Part shown: positions 24,531 through 32,760 of the stretch, piece by piece
Position numbering within the stretch: the first letter of the stretch is position 1
How the letters are laid out: each line of letters starts with the position of its first letter
From: Elizabethkingia sp. YR214
Lineage (GTDB): Bacteria; Bacteroidota; Bacteroidia; Flavobacteriales; Weeksellaceae
Length of the DNA stretch: 64,000 bases
Direction of reading: 5' to 3'
Assembly (NCBI RefSeq): GCF_003058195.1
Contig: NZ_QBUH01000002.1
Span: 434,001-498,000 of the forward strand
Position numbers and translations under genes: made by a program
The notes under the pieces: generated by a model
Seen by the model: the letters and a program-made list of their open reading frames with translations, nothing else
What the model was told of the DNA's origin: nothing
Database searches by the model: none

Positions 24531-26012
24531 ATGAAAAAATATATTATATCAGTTCTTGCAGTACCTTTTTTAATGCTGAGTTCTTGTGAATCTGACTTAA
24601 CAAAAATTAATGAGAACCCTAAGGATCCTGCGAATGTAGATCCTAGTGTATTGCTTACGAATGTAACGAGGCAATCTTTCCCGGTTGACAATAGCTCTAA
24701 CTCAGCTTTGAGAATGCTTGTGAATACTGGAGAAGAGAATGACTATCAATATCTAAAATGGAATAATGCTTCTTTTGATGCCTACAAAAACATTTTGCTG
24801 AATGATGTAAAAATGATGGAGGAAGCTGCAAAAAGCAATAATAAAAACTATCAGGCTATTGGTAAATTTTTCCGCGCCCTTCATTTCTATAACCTTAGTA
24901 TGAGGGTAGGAGATATTCCATATTCTGAGGCTTTAAAAGGAGAGACTGACAATATAAGATTACCGAAGTACGACAAACAGGAAGATGTCTTCGCTGGAAT
25001 CCTTGCTGAGTTGAAGGAAGCTAATTCATTAATCAATACCAATGATAAAATTGGTGGAGACATTGTTTATAACGGAAACATCGAAAGGTGGAAAAAGTTA
25101 ATCAACTCATTTCGTTTAAAAATCCTTATTACACTTTCTAAAAAAGCTAAAGCAGGAAATATTGATATTAAAAGTGAATTTGCAAGTATTGTAAATTCTG
25201 AAAGATTAATGGAATCAAATAGTGATAATGGACAATTGACTTTCTTTGATTTAGCAAACAGCCGTTATCCAACTTTCAACAGCAGTTCTTATGGTTCCAG
25301 CTTATATATGTCCGATACATTTATTCAGTATTTCAAGGACAGAAAGGATCCAAGAATCTTCACATTTGCAGAGCAAACTACTTCTGCAAAAGAAAAAAAT
25401 CTCGCGCTGACGGATTATAATGCATATCAGGGCGGAAATCCTATTTCACCTTATTCAGATAATGCAAAACTAATAGACCAGAAGATTATCTCGAAAGTAA
25501 AAACACGTTTCTATCTGGATCCGATAAATGAGCCAAGTAACATTCTGAGCTATTCGGAGCTAAACTTTATTTTGGCAGAAGCTGCAGTAAGAGGATGGAT
25601 TAATCAAAGTGGAGCAAAGCAATACTATGAAAACGCAGTTAAGGCCAGCTTCGACTTTTATAAAGCCAATGTAAAAGATTCGGATAAGCTATTTGCAGGT
25701 TTTGATATTACCAATTATTTAAACAGTACACCTGTTGCCTATAATACAGGTGAAAGTACTGATAAACAAATGGAAAGAATTCTTACCCAGAAATATATGA
25801 CGATGTTCCATCAGAGTCAGTGGACTGGTTATTATGATGCACTTCGTACAGGATATCCAAAATTACCAATCGTTAGCGGTGGTGTATTCCCCAAAAGATT
25901 CAGATATCCTCAGGATGAATACAATACTAATTCACAAAATCTGAATGCAGCGATCAGCTCTCAGTATGGCGGGAAAGATGATATTTTCCAGACACCATGG
26001 TGGTTACAATAA
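24531..26012 (+). CDS. SusD/RagB-like nutrient-binding lipoprotein
   Basis: A 493-residue lipoprotein that forms the lid over the SusC channel. The lipobox is LSSC, with Cys19 lipidated, and acidic and polar residues follow, in keeping with export to the cell surface. The body is helical with TPR-like pairs; FFRALHFYNLSMRVGDIPYSEAL and SELNFILAEAAVRGW match the SusD-like_2 subfamily. It begins 6 bases after the SusC stop and is followed by a terminator, so the operon has just two genes. Confidence 0.94.
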   Translation: MKKYIISVLAVPFLMLSSCESDLTKINENPKDPANVDPSVLLTNVTRQSFPVDNSSNSALRMLVNTGEENDYQYLKWNNASFDAYKNILLNDVKMMEEAAKSNNKNYQAIGKFFRALHFYNLSMRVGDIPYSEALKGETDNIRLPKYDKQEDVFAGILAELKEANSLINTNDKIGGDIVYNGNIERWKKLINSFRLKILITLSKKAKAGNIDIKSEFASIVNSERLMESNSDNGQLTFFDLANSRYPTFNSSSYGSSLYMSDTFIQYFKDRKDPRIFTFAEQTTSAKEKNLALTDYNAYQGGNPISPYSDNAKLIDQKIISKVKTRFYLDPINEPSNILSYSELNFILAEAAVRGWINQSGAKQYYENAVKASFDFYKANVKDSDKLFAGFDITNYLNSTPVAYNTGESTDKQMERILTQKYMTMFHQSQWTGYYDALRTGYPKLPIVSGGVFPKRFRYPQDEYNTNSQNLNAAISSQYGGKDDIFQTPWWLQ

Positions 26013-26544: not shown

Positions 26545-26558
26545 ACTAAAATTTTAGT
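26545..26558. promoter_or_regulatory. operator-like dyad 1 upstream of blaI-like gene
   Basis: The perfect 14-base palindrome ACTAAAATTTTAGT abuts the TTG (26558-26560) that fits the -33 element. It is a likely repressor site. Confidence 0.6.
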
Positions 26559-26579
26559 TGATCGAATCAAAAATTTATT

Positions 26580-26587
26580 TACATTTG
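26580..26587 (+). promoter_or_regulatory. blaI-like promoter
   Basis: TACATTTG is an exact -7 box with a TTG 19 bases upstream (26558-26560). It sits between the two ACTAA/TTAGT dyads. Confidence 0.75.
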
Positions 26588-26591
26588 TTAT

Positions 26592-26605
26592 ACTAAGTTT
26601 TTAGT
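26592..26605. promoter_or_regulatory. operator-like dyad 2 over the transcription start
   Basis: ACTAA-GTTT-TTAGT repeats the half-sites of dyad 1. Its centre is 47 bases from that of dyad 1, and it covers the predicted start site. Confidence 0.6.
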
Positions 26606-26620
26606 TATAAAGTAATCCCT

Positions 26621-26986
26621 ATGAAAAATAAAAGTCTTACAAAAGCAGAAGAACAGATTATGCAGTATATGTGGCAACAAAAAAAAGCATTCCTGAAGGA
26701 TATTCTGGATTTGTTTCCTGAGCCTAAGCCGCACACCAATACTGTTTCCACACTTATCAAAATTCTTATAGAAAAAGGATTTGTAGACTATACCTTACAT
26801 GGTCGTCAGCACGAATACTTTCCATTAGTTTCTAAAGAAGCCTATAGCGGAAAGTCATTAAAGGGATTGATGAAAAATTATTTTGACGGATCTTACCGTA
26901 ATGTAGTTTCATTTTTGGTAGAAAAAAATGAAATGAGCGTAGAAGATCTGGAAATGCTTTTACAGGAACTTAAAGATAAAGAATAA
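26621..26986 (+). CDS. BlaI/MecI family transcriptional repressor
   Basis: A 121-residue winged-helix repressor. The N-terminal domain (LTKAEEQIMQYMWQQKKAFLKDILD, then TVSTLIKILIEKGFVDYTLHGRQHEYFPLVS) carries the recognition helix and wing. The C-terminal helices (residues 75-121) form the dimer interface that BlaR-type proteases cut in staphylococci. Its stop codon overlaps the ATG of the M56 protease gene by one base, the classic repressor-sensor pair. Two ACTAA/TTAGT dyads bracket its promoter, suggesting autoregulation. In Bacteroidota such pairs are common without any beta-lactamase, and none is seen here. Confidence 0.95.
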   Translation: MKNKSLTKAEEQIMQYMWQQKKAFLKDILDLFPEPKPHTNTVSTLIKILIEKGFVDYTLHGRQHEYFPLVSKEAYSGKSLKGLMKNYFDGSYRNVVSFLVEKNEMSVEDLEMLLQELKDKE

Positions 26987-29235
26987 TGGAAATACTACTA
27001 TACCTTGGAAAAATGCTGTTATGCTCTGCTATTATGTGGAGTTATTATCTGCTTTTCTTAAAAGATAAAACCTTCCATCACTATAACAGGTTTTACCTTT
27101 TAGCAACAATAGTGATAAGTTTATTTTTACCATTATTAAAGGTAGAATACTTCACTATAGAAACTGACAACAGGATATTTCTTCTTCTCCAAAGTTTCAG
27201 TTTACAAACAGGAAACCAGGCAACTGCTGGTTTTGATTGGAAAAGCATCGCACTTTTCATCTTATTAGTAGTATCTATAGTTCTCTTTATAAGATTACTG
27301 ATTGGCATTTATAAGATCAATCGAATGAAAAATCAGTATCACGGAAAAGAACTAAAAGGCGTTCGCTTCTATATTACAGACCTGCATGATGCTCCGTTTT
27401 CATTTTTCAAAAACCTTTTTTGGAAAAAATCTATTGAAATAGATTCGGACCTTGGAAAACAAATACTGAAACATGAAATGGTACATATAGAACAGAAACA
27501 CAGCTGGGACAAGTTATTTATAGAATTTGTACAGGCCGTATTCTGGTTCAATCCAATTTTTTACTGGCTTAAGAAAGAGCTATTCTTAATCCACGAATAT
27601 CTTGCCGATAAAAAGGCAGTAAAACAGAATGACACAAAGGCATTTGCGCAGATGCTTTTAGCAAGTAAATTTTCCGGAACACCTTTACCTGCAACAAGTC
27701 CATTCTTATCCTCTAACCTCAAAAAAAGATTACAAATGATCACTAAACCTCATTACACCAAATTTAGTTATGCGCGCAGGGTAATGGCACTTCCGGTTTT
27801 ATTCGGAATTTCATTCACCTATTTAGTTACGGCTAAAAATAAAGAAATTGCCAAAACCAACCGTGAGATCGCTGTAGCTATTAATGCACTTCAACAAGAC
27901 ACTATCGGATCAGGGAATAATAAGAATGTTCACATCCAGATTAAAGAAAATAATAACAGAGGTTCTCTTTTAACAAAAATAGAGCAGGCTTCTGATAATT
28001 CAATTTTCAAAATCAATGGTAAAGCAGTTACCAAATCCGAGTTTACCGAATTCTATCACCAAAACAAAAATGCCCGCTATGCTTACAATCATTCTGGAAA
28101 TTCTGGTTCAAGTACTACAATTTTTGATGCTTATGATCTAAATTCAAAAGATCTGTCTGCAGATGATAAGAGAAAAATTGCTGAAAGCGACAGACGTTTT
28201 GCAGAGTCTTCAAAACGTTTTGAGAAAAATAATAAAAGATTCCAAAATAATCAACGAAGTATTATTTATAATGGTAACTATGTTCGTTATGAAGATATGA
28301 CAGCTGAACAGAAAAGGGATTTTAATAAAGCTATGAAAGAAGCTCAGAAAGCAAAAGATTATATTAATTCTGCCGATTATAAGAAAATAATAGCTGATGC
28401 TAAAAAAGCCGGTGAAGAAGGCAGAAAAGCCGCAGAGAAAGCAAGAGCTTATCTTAATTCTGATGAGTACAAAAAGATAATTGAAGATTCCCGTAAAGCT
28501 GCTGATATAGGAAGACAAGAAGCTGAAAAAGCAAGAGCCTATCTTAACTCTGCCGAATATAAGCAAATAATGGAAAATGCCAGGAGAGAATCAGAAAAAG
28601 CTAGGAATTACATGAACTCTGCCGAATATAAGCAGATAATGGAGAACGCTAGAAAGGCAGCTGAAGACGGAAGAAAGCAGGCAGAAAAAGCTCGTGAATA
28701 CCTTAACTCTCCGGAATATAAAAAAATGATGGAAGAAAGCAGATTGGCTGCCCAAAACTGGAGTAGTAAGTTTAAGGACAGCTTTAAAAATGTAGACTTT
28801 TCCGGAACATTTATGACGAAAGAAAAACAAAATAAAGTTTTAGAAGAGTTAAAGAATAGTTTGAAAGATAAAAACATGAAGGATGAAGATATTCAGAAGA
28901 TTCTTGAAAATGTAAAGAAAAACTTTAGCAATTCTTCGAAGTTTGGTACTGCCATAAATATCTCTGCAAAAACAGACTCACCTTTTGTTATGGCAGTAGC
29001 TGGTAATGAACCTAAAAGTTATAGCTTTACTTCAACATATTCCACAACAGGAGACGATGTTGGTAAGCCATCTTTGAAAATATCTTCCTTTGGAAAAGAT
29101 ACCGAAGTTTATGTAGATGGAGTAAAAGTGGATTATGATGCTATGAAAGATATCAATCCAAAAGATATACAAAGCGTAAGCATTACAAAAAGTACCGGCA
29201 AAAAAAGCATTATAAAAATTCAGAAAAAATCATAG
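26986..29235 (+). CDS. BlaR1-like M56 family metallopeptidase with repeat-bearing C-terminus
   Basis: A 749-residue membrane protease. Helices lie at about 5-24, 36-52 and 88-107. The zinc site is HEMVH (His163, Glu164, His167) with a third-ligand candidate in HEYLADKKAV (Glu204). A fourth helix (264-283) leads into a long outer part with no penicillin-binding domain. Residues 456-592 form five helical repeats, three of 30 residues, one shortened to 23 and one incomplete, with the core Y-x-NS-x-x-YK-x-I/M-M/I. The tail (about 706-738: VYVDGVKVDYDAMKDINPKD then IQSVSITKS) resembles the strand-turn of a TonB-receptor plug. Site-1 proteolysis of the repressor is the expected role; the signal sensed is unknown. 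Confidence 0.92.
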   Translation: MEILLYLGKMLLCSAIMWSYYLLFLKDKTFHHYNRFYLLATIVISLFLPLLKVEYFTIETDNRIFLLLQSFSLQTGNQATAGFDWKSIALFILLVVSIVLFIRLLIGIYKINRMKNQYHGKELKGVRFYITDLHDAPFSFFKNLFWKKSIEIDSDLGKQILKHEMVHIEQKHSWDKLFIEFVQAVFWFNPIFYWLKKELFLIHEYLADKKAVKQNDTKAFAQMLLASKFSGTPLPATSPFLSSNLKKRLQMITKPHYTKFSYARRVMALPVLFGISFTYLVTAKNKEIAKTNREIAVAINALQQDTIGSGNNKNVHIQIKENNNRGSLLTKIEQASDNSIFKINGKAVTKSEFTEFYHQNKNARYAYNHSGNSGSSTTIFDAYDLNSKDLSADDKRKIAESDRRFAESSKRFEKNNKRFQNNQRSIIYNGNYVRYEDMTAEQKRDFNKAMKEAQKAKDYINSADYKKIIADAKKAGEEGRKAAEKARAYLNSDEYKKIIEDSRKAADIGRQEAEKARAYLNSAEYKQIMENARRESEKARNYMNSAEYKQIMENARKAAEDGRKQAEKAREYLNSPEYKKMMEESRLAAQNWSSKFKDSFKNVDFSGTFMTKEKQNKVLEELKNSLKDKNMKDEDIQKILENVKKNFSNSSKFGTAINISAKTDSPFVMAVAGNEPKSYSFTSTYSTTGDDVGKPSLKISSFGKDTEVYVDGVKVDYDAMKDINPKDIQSVSITKSTGKKSIIKIQKKS
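28351..28761 (+). repeat. in-frame tandem repeats inside the M56 gene
   Basis: Five tandem units of about 90 bases encode AKDYINSADYKK..., ARAYLNSDEYKK..., ARAYLNSAEYKQ..., ARNYMNSAEYKQ... and AREYLNSPEYKK.... The third unit is 69 bases, lacking seven codons. All length changes keep the frame. Confidence 0.9.
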
Positions 29236-29238
29236 TAG

Positions 29239-29263
29239 AAAGGCTGCATAAGCAGCCTTTTTT
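29239..29263 (+). terminator. terminator between M56 gene and GLPGLI genes
   Basis: A 9-bp stem (AAAGGCTGC with GCAGCCTTT, 4-base loop) and a T tract. The next ATG is only 14 bases on, leaving no room for a promoter between. Confidence 0.88.
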
Positions 29264-29277
29264 CAAACACCAAAGCC

Positions 29278-30099
29278 ATGAAATTCACAATTACTTTTTT
29301 ATTGTGCATTAGCATTTTTATGCACTCTCAGACCCGACGATATATCTACCAGCTTACCTATACAGATAATGTTACTAAGAATAGTAAGCGAAATATCAAT
29401 ATGGTACTGGATATTAATCCTAAGGATGTTAAATTCTATGAATATGGGTTTCTGGAAACGGATTCTTTAAATCAGCTTCCGGATGCAATAAGACATTATA
29501 GAGGCAGCGAAACCAAACAATTATTAAAGAGAGATACAAATTCTTTTAATAACACTAATTTTTATAGAGTCAGTGACTATTTTGTTTTTCCTTCAGAAGA
29601 TCCTATACAATGGACTTTAAAAAATGAGACTAAACAAATAGATCAATATAAAGTCCAAAAAGCAACAACTGATTTTGGTGGAAGGAAATGGACAGCTTGG
29701 TTTGCTCCGGATATTCAGATTAATGAAGGTCCTTACAAGTTCAGAGGTTTACCCGGATTAATTTTCGAAATATCAGACAATGAAGAGCATTTTCATTATA
29801 AATTAGTGAAAAATAAAAATTTCAGCAAAACTCAGTCTACCGAGAATTTTTTAGAAACCTATTATGGCCAAACACCCACAAAAATATCTATGGTCATGTA
29901 TAAAAAATTATTTCTAGACTATTACAATGATCCTTTTGCATGGGCCAGGTCGGCACCTGAGGGCAGATGGAGTATAAAAATAGGAGATAAAGAGTATAAG
30001 ACAAAAGCCGATCTAAAAGAAGCAACCGAAAATTCACAAAAAACAATGCGTGACAGCTACAATCCAATTGAAAAGAATAACGCAGTAATATTAAAATAA
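29278..30099 (+). CDS. GLPGLI family exported protein, copy 1
   Basis: A 273-residue protein of the GLPGLI family, named for its signature, seen here as YKFRGLPGLIFEISD near residue 155. A signal peptide (1-17, HSQ) sends it to the periplasm. The stretch before the signature, FGGRKWTAWFAPDIQINEGP, is shared by all four copies. Function is unknown. This is the most divergent of the quartet, lacks the VLDDRK segment of the others and ends NPIEKNNAVILK. It begins just after a terminator and is followed by copy 2 with a one-base gap. Confidence 0.93.
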   Translation: MKFTITFLLCISIFMHSQTRRYIYQLTYTDNVTKNSKRNINMVLDINPKDVKFYEYGFLETDSLNQLPDAIRHYRGSETKQLLKRDTNSFNNTNFYRVSDYFVFPSEDPIQWTLKNETKQIDQYKVQKATTDFGGRKWTAWFAPDIQINEGPYKFRGLPGLIFEISDNEEHFHYKLVKNKNFSKTQSTENFLETYYGQTPTKISMVMYKKLFLDYYNDPFAWARSAPEGRWSIKIGDKEYKTKADLKEATENSQKTMRDSYNPIEKNNAVILK

Positions 30100-30100
30100 T

Positions 30101-30949
30101 ATGAAGAAAATTCTCTACTTATTCCTTGCCGGATATGGTATACTATATGCGCAGAATCAGAAATTTGTATATGAATACAAGTTTATATCAGATTCTACTA
30201 ATGTAAGAGATATTAAATCCGAAATCACCCATCTGGAAGTTACTCCAAAAGGTTCACTGTTTTATAGTTATGAAGTTTACAAAAGCGATTCTTTGGCGAA
30301 AGCAGATCTGGAAAGACAGCTTAAAGCAACAGGTAGCATCAATGTTAAAACTAATATGCGAAAAGGGAAATTCAGAGATAGAATATTTAAAACCTATCCT
30401 GATTTTAAGATCACACAGGAAAGTTCTACAACAGGAAAAGCTTTAAAGATTATCGATGATCGTAAACTCGATTGGAAAATATTGCCGGACAAACAAAAAA
30501 TAGGAAACTATGAGACACAAAAGACTGAGACTACCTTTGCCGGAAGAAAGTGGACAGCATGGTTTACCACTGAAATTCCGTTTCAGGATGGTCCATATAA
30601 ATTCCATGGGCTTCCTGGTTTTATTGTGAAAATTGAAGATACAAGCAAGTCTCATGTATTTGAACTGAAAGAGGTAAGTAAATTGGTAACTCCTTTCAAT
30701 GAAGAATTGACTTTATTCCAGAAAGCTGTAGATGTACCTTATCCCCAGTATGTGAAAATCTACAAAATGTATCGAAAAGATCCTACAGCAGAGTTTAAGC
30801 AAAGAATGGCTACTATTTCGAATCAAGTTATAAGAGATTCCAGTGGTAATCCTATAGACATGAATAAAATAATGAAAGAGCGTGAGCAACAAGATTTGGA
30901 AAGGCTGAAAAAGGACAATAATATTCTAGAATTGGATTTATTAAAGTAA
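30101..30949 (+). CDS. GLPGLI family exported protein, copy 2
   Basis: A 282-residue GLPGLI protein. It has a signal peptide (1-17, LYAQ), an N-terminal beta-rich part opening FVYEYKFISDS, the segment IDDRKLDWKILPDKQKIGNYETQK, and the core FAGRKWTAWFTTEIPFQDGP. The signature reads GLPGFI, a Leu-to-Phe change. The C-terminal third is charged and helical and ends DNNILELDLLK. The core is nearly identical to that of copy 3 while the flanks differ, which points to duplication followed by divergence at both ends. It is cotranscribed with its neighbours. Confidence 0.93.
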   Translation: MKKILYLFLAGYGILYAQNQKFVYEYKFISDSTNVRDIKSEITHLEVTPKGSLFYSYEVYKSDSLAKADLERQLKATGSINVKTNMRKGKFRDRIFKTYPDFKITQESSTTGKALKIIDDRKLDWKILPDKQKIGNYETQKTETTFAGRKWTAWFTTEIPFQDGPYKFHGLPGFIVKIEDTSKSHVFELKEVSKLVTPFNEELTLFQKAVDVPYPQYVKIYKMYRKDPTAEFKQRMATISNQVIRDSSGNPIDMNKIMKEREQQDLERLKKDNNILELDLLK

Positions 30950-30951
30950 TT

Positions 30952-31839
30952 ATGAAAAATGCAATATCAATTTTTTGCTTGCTTATTGTATTAACTGTAC
31001 AAGGGCAGGTTCAGCGGTTTATTTATGAATATAAATTTACCAATGACTCTTTGAAAAAAGATTCTTTGAAATCTGAATATATGTTTCTGGATGTTTTGAA
31101 AACTGGCTCAAAGTATTATAGCAAGAAACAATTTGATTCTGATTCTATTCAGACTATTGCAATCATTAAGCAAATGAAAATGAACCCTGGTAGTATTTCT
31201 GTGAGCAAAAGCTTTGGTGAAGGTGGTATAGATTATATTATAGAAAAAAGCTACCCGGATTTTAAAATTGGATTCAACACCTCTGTAGGAATGGGTATTG
31301 GAAATACAGATTATAAAGTTTTAGACGATCGTAAACTTAGCTGGAAAATATTATCGGATAAGCAAAAAATAGGAGAGTTCGATACTCAGAAAGCTGAGAC
31401 AACTTTTGCCGGAAGAAAATGGACAGCATGGTTCACTACTGAAATTCCGTTTCAGGACGGCCCTTATAAATTTCATGGACTTCCTGGACTTATTGTAAAA
31501 ATTGAGGATTCAAAGCACACCCATATAATGGAGCTAAAGGCGGTAAAGAAAATTCCTGAACGAGAGTTGACAAAAGAAGAAACAGACGCAATTGCTTATA
31601 AAGAAAAAATGGGCAAGAGATTACCTGTGAATCAAAGTCAGTATAAAAGACTCATAGAACAGTACAAAAACGACCCTGTGCAAGGCTATCGCGAAATGAT
31701 GAACAAACCGAACATGAAAGTAAGCATTAATATAGATGGACGTATTATTAGTGACAATGCCGAAATTCTAAAGCAGATGGAAAAAACAGCCAAAGAACAA
31801 ATAAAAAATGAAAACAACCTTATAGAACAACAATTATAA
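30952..31839 (+). CDS. GLPGLI family exported protein, copy 3
   Basis: A 295-residue GLPGLI protein with signal peptide (1-18, VQGQ), the FIYEYKFTNDS opening, VLDDRKLSWKILSDKQKIGEFDTQK and FAGRKWTAWFTTEIPFQDGP, then the exact GLPGLIVKIED. The C-terminal helical part (residues 190-295) is the most variable and ends ENNLIEQQL. It starts two bases after copy 2 and ends nine bases before copy 4, firmly within the operon. Confidence 0.93.
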   Translation: MKNAISIFCLLIVLTVQGQVQRFIYEYKFTNDSLKKDSLKSEYMFLDVLKTGSKYYSKKQFDSDSIQTIAIIKQMKMNPGSISVSKSFGEGGIDYIIEKSYPDFKIGFNTSVGMGIGNTDYKVLDDRKLSWKILSDKQKIGEFDTQKAETTFAGRKWTAWFTTEIPFQDGPYKFHGLPGLIVKIEDSKHTHIMELKAVKKIPERELTKEETDAIAYKEKMGKRLPVNQSQYKRLIEQYKNDPVQGYREMMNKPNMKVSINIDGRIISDNAEILKQMEKTAKEQIKNENNLIEQQL

Positions 31840-31848
31840 ATATTCTGT

Positions 31849-32730
31849 ATGAAAAAATTATTATTTCTTTTCATCTTTTCTATAGCATTCTATACAAATA
31901 TAGTAGCCCAAAGGTTTACCTATGAATATAAATATGCAATTGATTCTACCCGAAAAGATTCATTAACAACTGAACATATGATTCTTGATATAAGTAAATC
32001 AGGTTCTAAATTTTATAGTAAGGCCAAGTATGAAAATGACAGCATTATAAAAGCCGAAGTCGAAAAACAAATGAAAACAGGCGCTTCCAATATTCAGATG
32101 AAATCAGGTTACAAGGGAAGTGTTAATTTCTCTGTAGAAAAGAGCTATCCGGATTACAAGACTTATCTTCTAACCAATGTCGGAGCAGTTGGAGGAATGT
32201 CAAGATATAAAGTTCTGGACGACCGTAAAATAGAGTGGAAAATATTAAAAGACCAGCAGAAAATAGGTGAATTCAATGCTCAAAAAGCGGAAACAAACTT
32301 TGCCGGGAGGAAATGGATTGTATGGTTTACCACCGATATCCCTTTTCAGGATGGGCCATACAAATTCCGTGGACTTCCTGGTTTGATTGTGAAAATTGAA
32401 AGCGCGGATAAAACCCACAATATGGAATTGAAGGGAGTAAAAAAAATGACGGACGAACAGCTCACTGCCAGTAGTTCACCCGAATTATCTATATTGAGAA
32501 ATAAGCCTCTGGATATTTCCCAATCACAGTATGTTAAGCTTATGGATCAGTATAAAAAAGATCCAGGACAGAGCATGCGGGAAATCCTTAACAGACCTGG
32601 TGTAAAGATGAAATTTAATGTAAATGGTAAAGACGTTACAGATCCAAATGATATGATCCGACAGATTGAAAAAACAGCAAAAGAAAAACTAAAGAGAGAA
32701 AATAATCCGATTGAACTAAAACTCAATTAG
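31849..32730 (+). CDS. GLPGLI family exported protein, copy 4
   Basis: A 293-residue GLPGLI protein. It has a signal peptide (1-20, VAQ), FTYEYKYAIDSTRKDS, VLDDRKIEWKILKDQQKIGEFNAQK, FAGRKWIVWFTTDIPFQDGP and GLPGLIVKIES. The C-terminus ends NNPIELKLN, the end motif common in this family. It is the last gene of the block and is closed by a terminator. The VLDDRK / FAGRKW / GLPGLI order is the same as in copies 2 and 3. Confidence 0.93.
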   Translation: MKKLLFLFIFSIAFYTNIVAQRFTYEYKYAIDSTRKDSLTTEHMILDISKSGSKFYSKAKYENDSIIKAEVEKQMKTGASNIQMKSGYKGSVNFSVEKSYPDYKTYLLTNVGAVGGMSRYKVLDDRKIEWKILKDQQKIGEFNAQKAETNFAGRKWIVWFTTDIPFQDGPYKFRGLPGLIVKIESADKTHNMELKGVKKMTDEQLTASSSPELSILRNKPLDISQSQYVKLMDQYKKDPGQSMREILNRPGVKMKFNVNGKDVTDPNDMIRQIEKTAKEKLKRENNPIELKLN

Positions 32731-32735
32731 AAAAT

Positions 32736-32760
32736 AATCCGGCTTACAGGCCGGATTTTT
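32736..32760. terminator. terminator closing the GLPGLI block
   Basis: AATCCGGC pairs with GCCGGATT across a 6-base loop, followed by TTT. It is convergent with the hydroxyproline operon, for which the reverse reading is weaker. Confidence 0.85.

Follow-up and report, generated by a model that had tools for sequence, protein, structure and literature searches.

In staphylococci, the BlaI-BlaR1 and MecI-MecR1 systems pair a repressor with a membrane metalloprotease that carries a penicillin-binding sensor domain; the zinc site of BlaR1 faces the cytoplasm. Here we describe a related arrangement in Elizabethkingia sp. YR214 (Flavobacteriales; Weeksellaceae), found in a 64,000-nucleotide stretch of contig NZ_QBUH01000002.1 (positions 434,001 to 498,000, forward strand; hereafter the window). 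It consists of a BlaI/MecI-type repressor, an M56 (BlaR1-type) protease and four tandem genes of the GLPGLI family, whose proteins are, to our knowledge, without a known role. By membership this is not a BlaR1 system, because the penicillin-binding sensor domain is missing; by analogy, it should work like one.

We consider it likely that the locus encodes a derepression circuit of the BlaI/BlaR1 type with the GLPGLI set as its output. The gene order, operators, conservation and predicted fold on which this reading is based were all derived from sequence.

Gene order, linkage and operators

The unit is made up of the following genes (lengths in amino acids, aa) and a closing stem-loop.

26621..26986, + strand: BlaI/MecI-type repressor, 121 aa (PF03965 E 8e-29; MecI structures E 6e-11)
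26986..29235, + strand: M56 (BlaR1-type) membrane metalloprotease with a long C-terminal tail, 749 aa (PF05569 E 1e-12)
29278..30099, + strand: GLPGLI 1, 273 aa, in the chromosomal GLPGLI branch, not the M56-linked one (TIGR01200 161 bits; tree)
30101..30949, + strand: GLPGLI 2, 282 aa, M56-linked branch (TIGR01200 166 bits; tree)
30952..31839, + strand: GLPGLI 3, 295 aa, M56-linked branch (TIGR01200 162 bits; tree)
31849..32730, + strand: GLPGLI 4, 293 aa, M56-linked branch, structure modelled (TIGR01200 175 bits; model confidence, pLDDT, 85)
32736..32757, + strand: terminator-like stem-loop closing the unit

A first-pass annotation, made from the letters and open reading frames alone, had described blaI, the M56 gene and four GLPGLI genes on one strand (26621-32730) with very short gaps among the last four. 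Open reading frames and family profiles bear this out, and the gaps are 1, 2 and 9 bases as that annotation had them. The M56 start and the blaI stop share 1 base, and 42 bases separate M56 from GLPGLI 1. BlaI scores 100.7 bits against PF03965 (cut-off 22.6) over profile positions 1-114 of 115, M56 scores 48.1 bits against PF05569 (cut-off 31), and all four GLPGLI proteins are clear members of TIGR01200 (161-175 bits, cut-off 50). That no other target gene adjoins, as had been remarked, is true in cis: a SusC/SusD pair ends upstream at 26012, a position it occupies in Elizabethkingia only, and a convergent gene set lies downstream. A plasmid search gave no match. Because there are only 17 GLPGLI and 3 BlaI genes genome-wide (and 2 Pfam M56 genes), and because the arrangement recurs in other genera, the row of four GLPGLI genes behind one BlaI is not chance.

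The annotation had proposed a neighborhood survey, and the survey found the linkage conserved. One to four GLPGLI genes lie directly behind M56 in 41 of 44 family neighborhoods with room downstream (window included). In a separate named sample the linkage holds at 65 of 74 loci, with BlaI upstream of M56 in 74/74; the two samples overlap in some species and are not additive, and both are biased to close relatives of the window M56. Genes farther out vary between genera, placing several different flanks around the conserved linkage. The closest named relative of the window M56 in the survey, at 89% identity, is from E. miricola. Across other families of the class, a GLPGLI gene was found near the BlaI-M56 pair in 0 of 40 cases (20 kb fetched each), using a profile built within the family that very distant GLPGLI proteins could escape. 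The second BlaI-M56 pair of the genus had GLPGLI neighbors at 0 of 3 loci. By these sequence comparisons, the unit is conserved across Elizabethkingia, Chryseobacterium and their relatives.

The region ahead of blaI contains a predicted promoter and two palindromes.

26545..26558, + strand: operator 1, ACTAAAATTTTAGT, whose end runs into the -33 TTG (26558-26560); conserved in the family
26580..26587, + strand: -7 box TACATTTG of a Bacteroidota-type promoter
26592..26605, + strand: operator 2, ACTAAGTTTTTAGT, starting 4 bases past the -7 box and 47 bp from operator 1

The two ACTA-N6-TAGT sites bracket the predicted blaI promoter, as expected of BlaI/MecI-family repressors with operators at their own promoter, and the bla/mec operator form ACTACA-N2-TGTAGT fits the same pattern. 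The -7 box was named from the Bacteroidota-type promoter consensus. Paired sites, mostly 45-47 bp apart, stand ahead of nearly every fetched blaI of the family. Since the second BlaI-M56 pair of the genome carries a different site, CTACATTTGTAG, the two circuits look separate. That pair (L038, G000:C1:523035-523373) has a TonB-like M56 tail, its site overlaps the -7 box, and it is followed by uvrB, with no GLPGLI gene. In another family of the order, a DUF4407 gene follows BlaI-M56 at two loci (L117 and L125), where blaI is preceded by doubled CTACA-N2-TGTAG sites.

We regard separate, operator-bearing GLPGLI units as the best non-experimental evidence for BlaI control of these genes. In Halpernia humi (L268) and Frigoriflavimonas asaccharolytica (L269), the GLPGLI genes lie in front of blaI as a unit of their own, not behind M56, and each unit opens with its own TANNTTTG-N4-ACTA-N6-TAGT promoter. 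The operator ends 18 bases (Halpernia humi) or 23 bases (Frigoriflavimonas) from the first GLPGLI gene, and the Halpernia promoter is nearly identical, letter by letter, to the neighboring blaI promoter. Because GLPGLI units outside the operon carry the operator, the GLPGLI genes are predicted to be outputs of the repressor and not mere neighbors. The first-pass annotation had read the locus as a signalling unit with the GLPGLI set as either its output or the ligand that the outer repeat and plug-like domain of the sensor would monitor; the output reading is the one well supported, by the conserved linkage, the autoregulatory operators and these separate units.

Further members of the regulon were sought by pattern only, and we trusted a site only when it had both operators with the promoter geometry or stood directly ahead of a relevant gene. 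Genome-wide, the exact operator pair occurs only ahead of blaI and ahead of a gene on contig C10 for a TonB-dependent outer-membrane protein of 713 residues (OMP_b-brl_3 at 292 bits). A search for the -7 box, a four-base spacer and the operator together likewise returns only the blaI and receptor sites. The receptor site has the same geometry in four Elizabethkingia genomes (this one and G002, G003 and G004). Riemerella columbina (G038) has the operator pair ahead of two receptors, one of them 34% identical to the Elizabethkingia receptor over 726 columns. We predict that this TonB-dependent receptor, which the first-pass annotation had no means of seeing, is a trans target of BlaI in Elizabethkingia.

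Other sites were noted during the same search. At L201:5982-6019, in a genus (G058) where M56 is not beside GLPGLI, an operator pair and a -7-like box precede a GLPGLI gene, which is followed by a gene for a protein of 897 residues whose N-terminal domain is carboxypeptidase-regulatory-like and which, by eye, looks like a receptor. Elsewhere in the present genome (L015:1498-3620; 1 of 13 other GLPGLI loci), a GLPGLI gene is directly followed by a TonB-dependent receptor gene. At L185:6844-6905, L188 and L191, an operator pair with a promoter-like site is followed by a strong terminator-like hairpin before a flavodoxin-fold gene, possibly producing a short regulated RNA; the corresponding site in this genome, upstream of G000:C2:50963-51556 (L208), has a mismatch in one arm. 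In three sister species (L186:7185-7245, L189, L192), a similar pair stands just before a gene for an S12 serine hydrolase. The flavodoxin-fold and S12 pairs match the -7 box only approximately and may be sites of a different regulator.

M56 tail and GLPGLI fold

Two parts of the long M56 tail can be delimited.

28342..28785, + strand: helical repeat part, about residues 453-600 (helices in a low-confidence model)
29083..29232, + strand: plug-like C-terminal segment, about residues 700-749

The HEXXH motif of M56 reads HEMVH (residues 163-167) and is invariant in 33/33 relatives. The N-terminal 310 residues are ~52-65% identical across the family, and the tail is not conserved except for its last 50 residues. 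The tail repeat seen in the first pass is confirmed: residues 459-572 hold five units that share a Y-[L/I/M]-N-S core, at spacings of 30, 30, 23 and 30 residues. The E. miricola tail has one unit more, and TRF found no DNA tandem repeat beneath the protein repeat. The plug-like end, also suggested there, gives a weak but repeated signal: 8 of 33 relatives match Pfam Plug (best E 2.5e-4), though the window protein itself does not; hhalign of the tail end against receptor plugs gave 75%. The M56 structure model is poor (pLDDT 61, pTM 0.27), and PDB matches to the tail were dismissed as resembling chance helical matches.

In other families of the class, M56 tails can be plug-like with no GLPGLI gene nearby, and we rejected the idea that such tails are a GLPGLI-specific device. 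By eye from sequence, M56 tails in those families are plug-like, TonB-like, amidase-like or M23-like or end in a sorting signal. Among them, L114, L115, L118, L147 and others have ends that look like amidase, M23, TonB C-terminal or sorting-signal domains, so that the envelope sensors form a varied set. Bacteroidota M56 sensors seem in general to carry envelope-facing parts, and a plug-like tail alone therefore does not imply GLPGLI sensing.

The GLPGLI proteins start with signal peptides, as judged by eye. The model of GLPGLI 4 is most like the N-terminal domain of PNGase F-II (4r4z, 4r4x, 7zgn; Z 14.9-15.6 over 166-177 residues), the best match having Z 15.6 and a root mean square deviation (rmsd) of 3.5 over 177 residues, and there is weak sequence similarity (profile E 0.008). 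LolA, RseB and MucB give Z 7-9 (LolA: Z 7-8.4, rmsd 3.8-5). RseB is matched through its N-terminal domain (Z about 8), and its C-terminal domain has no convincing match to the model. Searching the PDB directly with one GLPGLI protein gave no match. At G000:C6:73351-73761 (L019), this genome encodes a protein of 567 residues, part of it GLPGLI-like, that is probably its PNGase F-II homologue.

In a tree of 81 GLPGLI proteins, GLPGLI 2, 3 and 4 group with M56-linked genes of other genera, and GLPGLI 1 groups with four of this genome's other chromosomal GLPGLI genes. GLPGLI 1 seems to be a later recruit in Elizabethkingia. In Chryseobacterium, M56 was duplicated in tandem at least twice. Each of the seven double-M56 loci fetched by genome has two GLPGLI genes, and one named locus (L246) has a single GLPGLI gene.

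These features bear on the most probable of the alternatives, in which the sensor, too, includes the GLPGLI proteins. A LolA-like periplasmic protein would quiet M56 through its tail and release it on binding a lipid or other envelope ligand, closing a feedback loop. We keep this reading, as possible though unlikely, because RseB and MucB shield an envelope sensor from proteolysis until lipids bind (PMC7400510). The fold likeness to RseB and MucB (Z 7-8), the long exposed M56 tail and the two independent Chryseobacterium M56 duplications, each with two GLPGLI genes, are consistent with it. However, common arrangements can also reach a Z of about 8, PNGase F-II matches far better, there is no clear match to the RseB C-terminal domain, plug-like tails occur without GLPGLI genes, and L246 has two M56 genes and one GLPGLI gene. 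The more specific proposal, that GLPGLI proteins sit on the M56 tail as RseB-like co-sensors, let go of it on binding a lipid, a glycan or part of a receptor from the outer membrane, and so set their own level and that of the TonB-dependent receptor, we regard as rather doubtful. If true, penicillin-resistance parts would here make up an envelope-stress circuit of protease and repressor, and the GLPGLI family would have a first role.

The M56-GLPGLI hairpin and the remaining alternatives

Within the 42-base gap between M56 and GLPGLI 1 lies a further element, which the first-pass annotation does not mention.

29239..29260, + strand: terminator-like hairpin, AAAGGCTGC-ATAA-GCAGCCTTT, with a T run

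This hairpin could end most transcripts before they reach the GLPGLI genes, and it is the chief argument against simple co-transcription. Other observations also weigh against the derepression reading. At five family loci (L221, L249, L262, L274, L288), the fetched stretch holds the regulator pair without a GLPGLI gene, and there the pair must either be in decay or act on other targets. In Halpernia and Frigoriflavimonas, the GLPGLI units have one clear operator, not two. Across 100 family genomes, matches to the -7/operator pattern away from blaI were about as frequent as control matches, and single sites without other support may therefore be chance. Finally, where BlaI/MecI have the N-F scissile bond, the aligned residues of the window BlaI are F-L.

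Comparable hairpins, differing in sequence, are found in ~21 of 39 family gaps, the window included (a by-eye count from folds), and are absent where the gap is 12-17 bases. This distribution could be taken to mean that the hairpin ends the regulatory transcript and that a promoter inside the M56 gene drives the GLPGLI genes outside BlaI control, leaving them only loosely tied to the regulators. We find this improbable. The T run ends 14 bases ahead of the GLPGLI 1 ATG, and transcripts from any upstream promoter must therefore pass the hairpin; it is missing from the short gaps; and the separate GLPGLI units have a BlaI-type promoter. The sequence instead suggests an attenuator that holds GLPGLI expression below that of the regulators, or an RNA stability element.

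A beta-lactam response, as the BlaI and M56 family names imply, is very unlikely. The similar operator pair ahead of the S12 serine hydrolase gene (beta-lactamase family) in three sister species would fit it, but in this genome that gene is absent, leaving only a 29-residue remnant at G000:C6:197235-197321. Domain searches of the M56 tail found no transpeptidase (penicillin-binding) or beta-lactamase family match, and no penicillin-binding protein or beta-lactamase gene adjoins the unit, whose neighbors are GLPGLI and SusC/D genes. That M56 processes the GLPGLI proteins themselves is suggested by gene adjacency only and is hardly credible, as the zinc site would be cytoplasmic by BlaR1 topology and the GLPGLI proteins appear to be exported.

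Proposed circuit and comparison with known systems

In the derepression circuit that we infer, BlaI would bind the two ACTA-N6-TAGT operators and keep blaI, M56 and the GLPGLI genes at a low level, and likewise the TonB-dependent receptor gene in Elizabethkingia. M56 would sit in the inner membrane, its zinc site facing the cytoplasm and its helical tail, with the plug-like end, reaching into the periplasm. A signal, probably in the cell envelope rather than penicillin, would activate M56, which would then inactivate BlaI and allow the exported GLPGLI proteins to be made, with the hairpin behind M56 tuning their amount relative to the regulators. The site of GLPGLI action would be the periplasm or the outer membrane, and what these proteins do there would most likely be to bind an amphipathic or polymeric ligand.

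GLPGLI proteins are numerous in these bacteria, and a conserved regulator whose operator is defined offers a handle on them: deletion of blaI or M56 should turn a known set of genes on or off, and a GLPGLI role would be indicated by whatever signal trips M56. The locus also suggests that, in Bacteroidota, BlaI-M56 switches respond to envelope signals other than beta-lactams; the family concerned has human and poultry pathogens among its members.

Our literature search found nothing linking GLPGLI with BlaI or M56; in the parts of the literature available to us, GLPGLI genes are named among the regulated genes of other regulators. They are prominent in the PhoP regulon of Riemerella anatipestifer, at 5 of 50 direct targets (PMC9603813). 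That regulon has a different regulator from the present unit, and the accessible part of its description draws no BlaI-M56 link (PMC9603813). An RNA-Seq study of an R. anatipestifer lipopolysaccharide (LPS) mutant, in which a BlaI-family gene was raised >fivefold (PMC5294843), was not used as a lead because the species has two BlaI genes and the signal cannot be assigned to either.

The window GLPGLI proteins are predicted to share the fold of the PNGase F-II N-terminal domain; at 273-295 aa, they have no glycosidase domain. As in RseB-RseA and MucB-MucA, a periplasmic protein, here one that may be LolA-like, is encoded with a proteolytic envelope sensor. In those systems DegS or AlgW cuts an anti-sigma factor, whereas the sensor here would be an M56 protease with a repressor as its target, and the fold likeness has a Z of only about 8. 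All four GLPGLI genes belong to the known family (TIGR01200 / PF09697 Porph_ging) and are here tied to a BlaI-M56 regulator. With BlaI-BlaR1 and MecI-MecR1 of staphylococci, the locus shares the PF03965 repressor, the M56 protease with its HEXXH motif and, by prediction, the palindromic operators around an autoregulated promoter. It differs from them in a sensor that carries a helical-repeat and plug-like tail in place of the penicillin-binding domain, and in its predicted outputs, which are GLPGLI proteins and a TonB-dependent receptor.

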